A program made the position numbers and the translations under genes. Below are positions 46,381 through 49,300 of a stretch of 64,000 nucleotides of DNA, one piece after another. The stretch lies in contig NZ_CP108488.1 of the NCBI RefSeq assembly GCF_035987325.1, forward strand, positions 4,278,001 through 4,342,000. Reading direction: 5' to 3'. The notes below the pieces were generated by a model. It saw only the letters and a list, made by a program, of their open reading frames with translations, had not been told where the DNA came from and did no database searches. Position 1 is the stretch's first letter. Every line of letters starts with the position of its first letter. The DNA comes from Streptomyces sp. NBC_01244 (lineage in GTDB: Bacteria > Actinomycetota > Actinomycetes > Streptomycetales > Streptomycetaceae).

Positions 46381-49300
46381 TTACATCCGGTTTACGTCCG
46401 GTTGCGGCAGGCCCTCCGCCAGGCCGTCCGCCAAGACCTCCGCCAGGTGCCGGGCCCGGCCGCCGGCCAGCTGCGCGATCTGGGTCCGGCAGGAGAACCC
46501 GTCCGCCAGCACCTCGGTGCCCGCGGCGGCCGTCCGCAGCGACGGCAGGAGCTGTTCCTCGGCGCAGGCCACGGAGACCTCGTGGTGGCCGGGCTCGAAG
46601 CCGAAGTTGCCCGCGAGGCCGCAGCAGCCGCCGCTGAGCTCCCCCGCCAGCCCGGCGCGCTCGCGCAGCCTGCGGTCGGCGGCGTCGCCGAGGACGGCGT
46701 GCTGGTGGCAGTGGGTCTGGCCGGCGACGGGCCGGTCGAGGCGGGGCGGCTGCCAGTGCGGGGCGTACTCCTCGAGCGTCTCGGCGAAGGTTCGGACGGC
46801 CGCTGCGAGACGGGGTGCGCGGGGGTCCTCCGGGAGGAGGGCGGGCAGATCGGTGCGGAGCGCTGCCGCGCAGCTCGGTTCGAGGACGGTGACGGGTCCC
46901 TGCGGGTCGCCTACGGCGTCCAGGGTGCGGCGCAGGACCCTGCGGGCGGCGTCGAAGCGGCCGGTGGAGATGTAGGTCAGCCCGCAGCAGACGCGGCCCT
47001 TCGGCAGGGCGGTCTCCAGGCCGGCGGCCCGCAGGACCCGGACTGCGGCGTGGCCGGCCTCGGGCGCGAGGTACTCCGTGAAGGTGTCCGGCCACACCGT
47101 GACGAGGGGAGCGGTCCCGGACCCGGGCGTGCCCTGCGGGGCTGGGTCCCCTACCCGCCCTTCGCCCGTTCCCCGGGCTCCGCCCGGACCCGTTGCCGGG
47201 TGCGGCGCCGTTCCCGGGGGCCAGCCCCCGGACCCCCGCTCCTCAAACGCCGGAGGGGCTGGATTCAGCCGAGGCGGGCTGGATGGCGCAGAGCGCCATT
47301 TCAGCCTCGCCGGCGCTTGAGGCGCGGGGTCCGGGGCGGAGCCCCAGGGGGTTCGGGGCGCAGCCCCGGGGAACGGGCGAAGGGCGGGTAGGGGACCTCC
47401 CCCCGCGGCGCGGGCCGGAGCCTGCCACCCGCGGGTGAACGGGGTCCGGGCCAGCCGCGGAAGGGGCCGGGACCGCTCCAGCCCGGGGACGCGGAGGAAG
47501 CGGGACAGCAGGTTCAGGGGGCCGGCCAGGCGGAGGGCCGCGATCAGGCGGAGCCAGGCCGGCAGCCCGCCCAGGGCGTAGTGGGAGAGCGGGCGCAGCC
47601 GGCCCGCCCAGTGGTGGTGGAGGAACTCCGCCTTGTAGGAGGCCATGTCGACCCCCACCGGGCAGTCGCTGCGGCAGCCCTTGCAGCCGAGGCAGAGATC
47701 CAGCGCCTCGGCGACCTCCGCGGAGCGCCAGCCGCCGGTCACGATCTCCCCGGCCAGCATCTCGTGGAGCAGCCGGGCCCGCCCCCGCGTGGAGTGGCGT
47801 TCCTCCCCCGTGGCCCGGTACGAGGGGCACATCACCCCCGGCCCCCCGACCTCCGTCGACCGGCACTTCGCGACGCCGACGCACCGCGCGACCTCCCCCG
47901 CGAAGGGCAGGGACGGCGGGAGGGAGGAGAAGCGGAGGTTCTCGTCGAGGCGTGCGGGGCGGACCAGGATGCCGGGGTTCATGCCGCCCGCCGGGTCCCA
48001 GAGCCGCTTGTAGGACTCGAAGAGGCCGATCACCGAAGGCCCGTACATCCGTGGCAGCAGCTCGGCCCGCGCCTGCCCGTCGCCGTGCTCCCCGGACAGG
48101 GAGCCCCCGTGGGCGACCACCAGGTCGGCGAGGTCCGAGGAGAAGGCCCGGAAGCGGGCCACGCCGGGCGGTGTCACCAGGTCGAAGTCGATCCGCACGT
48201 GGACGCAGCCCTCGCCGAAGTGGCCGTACGGGGATCCGCGCAGCCCGTGCTGCGCCAGCAGGGCCCGGAATTCCCGCAGGTAGGCGCCGAGCCGGGCGGG
48301 CGGTACCGCGCAGTCCTCCCAGCCCGGCCAGGCCATGGTCCCGTCGGGCATCCGGGTGGCCGTGCCCGCCGCGTCCTCGCGGATCCGCCACAGGGCCCGC
48401 TGCGCCGCCGGGTCGGTGAGCAGCAGGGCGTCCACCGCGTCGGAGGCCCGGAGCAAGGCCCGCGCCGCGCCCTCGTCGCGCATCTCGGCGAACAGCCATG
48501 CCCCGCCCCGCGGGAGCCCGGCGGCGGCCGCGCCGACCAGGTCGGCCGCCATCCCTTCCACGGTCAGCGGCCCGTGCGGCAGCAGCCCCACGGCGGCTTC
48601 CGCGGCCGCGCTCTCGTCGGCGTACCCGAGGACGGCCAGCGCCGGGGCGGCCGGCAGCTCGACGAGCCGTACCAGGGCCTCGGTCACCACGCCGAGCGTG
48701 CCCTCGCTCCCGCAGAACGCCCGGGCCACCTCGGTGCCCCGCTCGGGGAGCAGCGCGTCCAGGCCCCCGTAGCCGGAGATCCGCCGCGAGAAGCCGCCGG
48801 CCATGCCGGTGCGCAGCGCGGTCAGGTTCCCCGACACCAGCTCGCGCAGCCCGCCCGGCGCGCCCTCCCAGCCGGTGCCGAGCCGGTGGGAGGCGCCGCC
48901 GTACGCCGTGACCGACAGCTCGGCGACGTTGTCGGCGGTGGTTCCCCAGGCCACCGAGTGGGCCCCGCAGGCGTTGTTGCCGATCATGCCGCCGAGCGTG
49001 CACCGGGAGTGGGTGGAGGGGTCCGGCCCGAAGGTCAGCCCGTGCGGGCGGGCCGCGTCGCGCAGCCGGTCGAGGACCAGGCCGGGCTGGACCACGGCGG
49101 TGCGGGCGGCCGGGTCCAGGGAGAGCAGGGCGTTCATGTGGCGGGTGAGGTCGAGGACGACGCCGACGCCCGTCGCCTGGCCCGCGATGGAGGTGCCGCC
49201 GCCGCGCGGGACGACGGGGACCCCGGCCGCGGCGCACACCGCGAGCGCGGCGGCCACGTCCTCGGCGTCGCGCGGGGCCACGACGCCGACCGGGACGCGC

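Follow-up and report, generated by a model that had tools for sequence, protein, structure and literature searches.

How does a palindromic repeat whose relatives lie chiefly between genes come to be read through in frame within an enzyme? The question is raised by a stretch of 64,000 nucleotides from Streptomyces sp. NBC_01244 (contig NZ_CP108488.1, positions 4,278,001 to 4,342,000), referred to here as the window, in which a palindrome is found inside the gene for a FAD-binding and (Fe-S)-binding oxidoreductase. We consider it likely that this is a palindrome of the REP/MITE-like type which enters tolerant loops, is predicted to be translated there, and flips between its arms.

The palindrome and its host gene

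The features of the locus are as follows.

46381..49458, minus strand: FAD-binding and (Fe-S)-binding oxidoreductase gene, one open frame, with FAD_binding_4, FAD-oxidase_C, Fer4_8/Fer4_17 and CCG
47145..47177, plus strand: inverted arm 1, exact over 33 nt, within a 65-nt pair that is 80% complementary
47365..47397, minus strand: inverted arm 2, exact over 33 nt, within the same 65-nt, 80% complementary pair as arm 1
47145..47397, minus strand: palindromic repeat in the limits first proposed, with exact arms; 117 matches by BLAST across the genome, a count that includes both strands and pieces
47131..47415, no strand assigned: palindrome in its revised extent with outer GTAG-tagged stem-loops (outer ends approximate), from the terminus profile, cap motifs and fold

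Counted from the ATG, the oxidoreductase open reading frame (46381-49458) codes for 1025 amino acids; the 1009 residues given in the earlier note fit a later GTG start, which is where the alignment consensus begins. The palindrome lies wholly within the gene, in the order Fe-S, palindrome, CCG, and has no stop in the gene's frame, just as that note had read it. The palindrome falls between the Fer4 matches, which end at residue 604, and the strongest CCG stretch, which starts at residue 795, and the cysteine and histidine residues on both flanks of the linker are invariant in a 38-row alignment. The relatives found in the PDB cover the FAD part of the protein, and the AlphaFold model has a mean pLDDT of 46, so poor that the lack of helix or strand in residues 685-784 proves little; the linker is predicted to be translated and disordered.

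The segments 47145-47177 and 47365-47397 are exact reverse complements over 33 nt, as first noticed. When 20 order-1 random windows were scanned for exact inverted repeats within 300 nt, the longest in each measured 12 to 16 nt, which rules out a chance origin of the arms. On the other hand, the ends first assigned, 47145 and 47397, make the element too short. Because a further conserved stem-loop is found outside GTCCCC in the termini of the family described below, the palindrome reaches to about 47131 and 47415, and therefore the argument that a 253-bp insertion, not being a multiple of three, must have been compensated in its flanks no longer holds. Between the same anchors the linker measures 408 nt in the window and 135 nt in the element-free orthologue L067, a difference of 273 nt or 91 codons. 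Codon-position counts within the palindrome gave no clear purifying pattern and are uninformative. A search of Rfam returned no match at the palindrome, the sole match in the window, Ms_IGR-5, lying elsewhere.

A lineage-restricted repeat family

The palindrome is a member of a lineage-restricted repeat family. A 28-nt arm pattern, allowing up to 3 mismatches, identified 126 termini (69 plus 57) in the 10.0-Mb genome, and the reversed control none. Of 150 genomes of the genus, 11 contain the exact 17-nt core, NBC_01244 included: it occurs 135 times in this genome, 113 times in genome G090 and 16 times in G099, and no other matching genome has more than 8 occurrences. Among the copies listed, those on the chromosome fall in the range 1.40-7.98 Mb on contig C1 (9.51 Mb), the outer parts of which hold none of them; at least two more are found on contig C2. 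One intergenic copy, L002, matches the window copy over 252 nt with 96% identity.

The gene context of the family was determined with a home-made gene caller in 113 loci taken from the listed places on C1, four of which had no strong terminus, leaving 109 classifiable copies. These comprise 52 between tandem, 42 between convergent and 8 between divergent genes (102 of 109 between genes), 4 inside called genes and 3 partial. The picture of a dispersed, chiefly intergenic family with a copy in the oxidoreductase domain linker is thus borne out, and the count of in-gene copies that had been proposed as a check gives, among these 109, four inside genes and three partial. A stricter earlier census, in which the oxidoreductase copy was the only one of 109 inside a gene, was set aside in favor of this one because Pfam domains flank all four in-gene copies. 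In L197, the one inspected of the three partial copies, the gene terminates inside a family copy. Family copies are found at a median distance of 91 nt from gene 3' ends and 200.5 nt from 5' ends, and convergent gaps hold 42 of the 102 intergenic copies as compared to 82 of all 431 adjacent called pairs in the same loci. Another copy in the window is intergenic, and this census lists it neither as an inside nor as a partial copy:

32077..32350, no strand assigned: intergenic family copy

A profile of 141 termini, read outward, consists of GGTAGGGGAC, a variable loop and CCCC; the tetranucleotide GTAG is present in 131 of the 141, and after it come GGGGA and a CCCC stem whose loop varies. The 17-nt core of both arms, with up to 2 mismatches, defined 38 paired copies, in which the cap motifs outside GTCCCC were found at 65 of 76 termini. 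The distance between their ends ranges from 68 to 485 nt, being at least 137 nt in 37 of the 38. The element may be described as a composite palindrome, two inverted arms that each end outward in a GTAG-tagged stem-loop. Out of the 228 frames of the paired copies 79 are open, at least one of them in 34 copies, and the lengths modulo 3 are evenly distributed (13, 12 and 13). Chance entry plus selection against loss of the frame therefore suffices, and a special coding property of the family is not needed.

Presence and absence of the element in orthologous linkers

The best 80 of 591 orthologous loci were analyzed, of which 75 hold both anchors and 5 are without the downstream one. Four close relatives (L067, L072, L074 and L075) have short linkers that do not include the element, L061 and L063 have both arms, and L068 and L062 a degenerate element. 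The element is also present in the oxidoreductase gene of G090 (L299), and a remnant of it in that of G099 (L300). The presence of the element would be the derived state. In a tree of the N-terminal part of the protein, which includes 68 rows (67 of 81 loci passing the length and identity filters, plus the window), the carriers cluster: 2 changes account for the six of them, compared to 5.9 for shuffled labels, the outlier being the remnant in L062. As this remnant and those detected at the peptide level in P0256, P0261 and P0263 fall outside the main clade, a single origin of the element in this linker is doubtful. The copy would have entered the linker between the Fe-S and CCG domains in an ancestor of a small clade of Streptomyces, perhaps more than once.

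The earlier note had also named an observation that would speak against insertion, namely distant orthologues sharing the linker minus the inverted ends; no such case was found among the loci examined. Its proposal that the insertion was tolerated with the frame preserved agrees with the four short, element-free linkers and with the seven testable carrier loci described below. Once in place the element would have evolved mainly under the constraint of keeping the frame, through indels, tandem expansion and partial deletion, the latter possibly leaving short scars. In strain AP-93 the element contains, in frame, a tandem array with about 14 copies of an 18-nt unit. The orthologue in G012 (L255:2640-3400) passes from a remnant of the element into unrelated sequence beside a stretch like a sequencing adapter; this gene is likely an assembly fault at the repeat. 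A similar adapter-like stretch ends L088. Other Streptomyces (L064, L096 and L101) have unrelated in-frame repeats in the same linker, indicating that the site tolerates repeats generally. The linkers form a natural series at one site, absent, present, expanded, reduced and inverted, from which to follow how a selfish-looking palindrome would become protein sequence, and this in a high-GC actinomycete.

Orientation of the element

Compared with the window copy, the in-gene copy of G090 aligns inverted (331 versus 162), and so do those of AP-93 (209 versus 88) and the degenerate one of H27-H1 (214 versus 118), whereas that of TBY4 aligns forward (283 versus 204). Close orthologues thus hold the element in both orientations, and it is open either way. 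Peptide markers assigned 10 of 46 tree rows as reverse and 5 as forward, with 31 showing neither, and on the tree orientation requires 5 changes, at least 4 of them forced by supported branches. Since shuffled labels require a mean of 4.4 changes, orientation does not follow descent.

One close pair is that of P0241 and P0248, identical in 631 of 633 residues before the linker and 247 of 248 after it. Their linkers, reconstructed from protein through codon sets and not from DNA, fit as reverse complements over 149 nt and directly over 33 nt, the maximum for shuffled sequences being 37 nt; the other half of the linkers adds 59 nt, and 38 nt that matches the greatest length from shuffled sequences. 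With no contig of P0241 longer than 33,980 bases, the orientation seen there may reflect how the reads were assembled. Reverse-complement runs of at least 60 nt were found in 16 of 60 close pairs of the FAD protein, 16 pairs drawn from a handful of proteins and not independent of one another, as compared to 0 of 5341 for HemA and 1 of 662 for AtuA, two other proteins with a family copy. The HemA loops among those listed show one arm only, and the lack of inversions in HemA pairs is what would be expected if flipping requires both arms.

Orientation differs between strains, as judged from the assemblies compared, and these data suggest that the element flips by recombination between its arms. 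The interior would then invert and the encoded peptide would be swapped for another. It is quite possible, however, that the changes in orientation and sequence are due to ectopic conversion or re-insertion of other family copies and not to inversion in place. The window copy, 96% identical to L002, is only 82% identical, and inverted, to its orthologous copy in G090, although the preceding part of the gene is 94% identical, and the two copies differ in their centres. In addition, the site of L002 measures 49 nt in G090 and 41 nt in TBY4 versus about 660-680 nt in the window genome, indicating that family copies come or go; it is 102 nt in G012 and 154 nt plus other repeat matter in AP-93. Against this explanation, the linkers of P0241 and of P0248 and P0249 are reverse complements through their centre, 149 nt without a gap, with nearly identical flanks, and conversion would need a donor having the same centre. 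Judging by the sequences compared, conversion or re-insertion probably acts on the in-gene copies as well as flipping.

A live coding switch, in which the arms recombine so often that both orientations coexist among the cells of a single strain, seems unlikely. If it were true, one gene would give rise to two enzymes differing only in their interdomain linker, and the whole repeat family would seed switchable, expandable linkers in core genes. The existence of nearly identical strains with opposite orientation makes inversion within the gene directly testable.

Predicted read-through of the palindrome

The upstream and downstream anchors are in one frame in all 75 loci having both (best 80 of 591). 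All seven DNA loci that carry the element and could be tested, the window among them, keep the frame and have no stop. Between fixed anchors their linkers measure 336 (window), 291, 624, 375, 177, 363 and 174 nt, each length divisible by three; L309 and L310, with linkers the same as those of L063 and L061, were not counted, and G012 was excluded. The copy would be translated as a spacer of about 90 residues, rich in proline, glycine, alanine and arginine, within one polypeptide, because stops are few in such GC-rich sequence (about a third of the frames are open) and the linker tolerates differences in length.

An alternative is that the palindrome splits the gene, its hairpin stopping transcription or translation so that two proteins are made. 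Folded as RNA, nucleotides 47129-47415 form a single hairpin of -238.1 kcal/mol (z -11.3), with none of 200 shuffled sequences as low, and family copies, as terminators do, lie nearer to the 3' than to the 5' ends of genes. If the CCG part were made as a protein of its own, it would have no need of the upstream frame, so that the conservation of the frame in 7/7 carriers and 75/75 anchored loci counts against this explanation and makes it very improbable. That the linker is ordinary low-complexity Pro/Gly drift resembling the family by convergence, as the unrelated repeats of L064, L096 and L101 in the same linker might suggest, has a practically negligible probability, and for the window copy it is ruled out by the DNA identity to an intergenic copy over 252 nt, to which the exact inverted arms can be added.

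In-frame copies in other genes

Four in-gene, in-frame copies are found in the genome, in the oxidoreductase, an AtuA-family gene, a tandem ABC ATPase and HemA. The second of these is also in the window:

37104..39572, minus strand: AtuA-family gene (AtuA and AtuA_ferredoxin) with an in-frame family copy between both domains
37966..38265, no strand assigned: family copy within the AtuA-family gene, approximate extent, with a recognised terminus at 38248

The AtuA-family gene also has long tandem repeats in its linker and C-terminal part, with units of 24/48 nt near 37737-37966 and 33 nt near 37177-37396. In the tandem ABC ATPase the in-frame copy is located between the two ATPase domains and has one recognised terminus; in the linker of this gene (L175:1064-3421), one end of the element is accompanied by 24-nt repeats similar to its GGGGCGCAGCCCC module. 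The HemA copy, also in frame and with one recognised terminus, lies between the Shikimate_DH match, which extends to residue 265, and the conserved LLDLAMPRDID at residue 432. Its assignment as a domain-linker copy was dropped, as the alignment with PDB sequences has conserved reductase sequence resuming at that motif; from this alignment it is a variable loop, probably within the NAD(P)-binding domain. Judged from peptides, two frames of the same arm are in use in the HemA loops. The family has also reached a gene of the heme pathway.

Among the best 120 homologues per protein, leaving out 15 HemA and 3 AtuA rows without anchors, at least one family peptide was found in the linkers of 52 of 105 HemA, 53 of 117 AtuA and 34 of 120 FAD proteins (shuffled means 0.08, 0.12 and 0.24), and at least two in 10, 14 and 16, respectively. 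The peptides were picked after viewing the linkers and protein databases favor intact genes, so that these counts are no independent test. The suggestion of the earlier note that such insertions could generate interdomain linkers is strengthened by the copies between domains of the AtuA-family protein and the tandem ABC ATPase, together with one HemA loop.

Class and mobility of the element

The element was described at first as MITE-like. The elements are short and multicopy, end in inverted repeats and encode no transposase themselves (33-nt arms, 38 pairs, 126 termini), and to this extent the term applies; neither a target duplication nor a partner transposase was found where searched, and its status as a MITE is unproven. 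A scan of the 38 pairs gave a best count of 13 compared to 6.9 for shuffled pairings at 2 nt, and of 7 compared to 2.8 at 3 nt, in both cases over many offsets and with uncertain outer ends. No clean insertion site with a target duplication was found, intergenic sites in relatives included; that of the copy at 32077-32350 is occupied in relatives by other repeat matter. No family end pair 560-3500 nt apart, as would mark an autonomous relative, was found in the 113 loci (about 5 kb around the listed termini). The genome has two Y1_Tnp genes (E <= 0.001), and the loci surrounding them showed no flanking family ends, one weak GGTACGGGAC apart. The distribution of the copies suggests that the family moved by transposition.

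With the GTAG-tagged REPs the family shares a palindromic stem-loop bearing the tetranucleotide GTAG on one side. The distance of 68-485 nt between its ends exceeds the unit size of 20-40 bp, although single termini could count as units, and no associated RAYT tyrosine transposase was found. With the Rickettsia palindromic elements (RPEs) it shares in-frame copies in unrelated genes, four in this genome, with Pfam domains flanking each copy.

Comparison with known systems

Insertion in frame has precedents in the RPEs and in intragenic REPs; flipping in frame is the unusual part. In intragenic invertons, DNA between inverted repeats flips within a coding sequence, altering the protein. The palindrome resembles them in being flanked by inverted repeats in a coding sequence and in that flipping would change the protein, and differs in that its two orientations are seen in assemblies of different strains, has no recombinase known to act on it, and is itself a dispersed repeat.

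RPEs, according to the available portions of the sources, are palindromic repeats of about 150 bp found in frame in many unrelated genes (PMC10969869), and those of R. conorii end in CGTC (PMC3733652). As far as these portions go, the Streptomyces family is like them in consisting of palindromes in frame inside unrelated genes, and unlike them in belonging to a different phylum and in having ends with GTAG instead of CGTC. It also differs in using more than one frame of an arm (HemA, from peptides) and in occurring in both orientations at one site. The GTAG-tagged REP families (Di Nocera group, 2013) have units of 20-40 bp, with some copies intragenic, in the part of the paper available (PMC3733652), the main text of which does not include the word Streptomyces. 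On that part, both have GTAG beside a conserved stem with a variable loop and lie mostly between tandem or convergent genes, with some copies inside genes. The Streptomyces family differs from those REPs, as there described, in being made of composites, two outward-facing units plus inner modules spanning 68-485 nt, with no RAYT found adjoining.

Enterobacterial RU elements with ORFs (Delihas, 2007) are, in the accessible part of the report, hairpin repeats of MITE-like character joined in frame with genes; in superfamily proteins they are absent from conserved domains, the fusions being at C-terminal regions (PMC2759123). By this partial account the two have in common MITE-like hairpin repeats in frame outside conserved domains, and differ in that three of the four Streptomyces copies are between domains and one is in a loop. 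The titles and beginnings of abstracts in the literature searched, the coverage of which mostly leaves out subscription journals, include no description of the Streptomyces family. A paper on S. coelicolor transcripts, to go by its available part (PMC4681348), is not used in the argument.

Other features of the window

A TnpB-family RNA-guided nuclease gene is located at 44002-45282 (NF040570, 185.6 bits, the cut-off being 100); both transposase genes of the Y1 (IS200) type are elsewhere in the genome. The Rfam match to Ms_IGR-5, an actinobacterial sRNA, is found at 28263-28475 with 79.6 bits.
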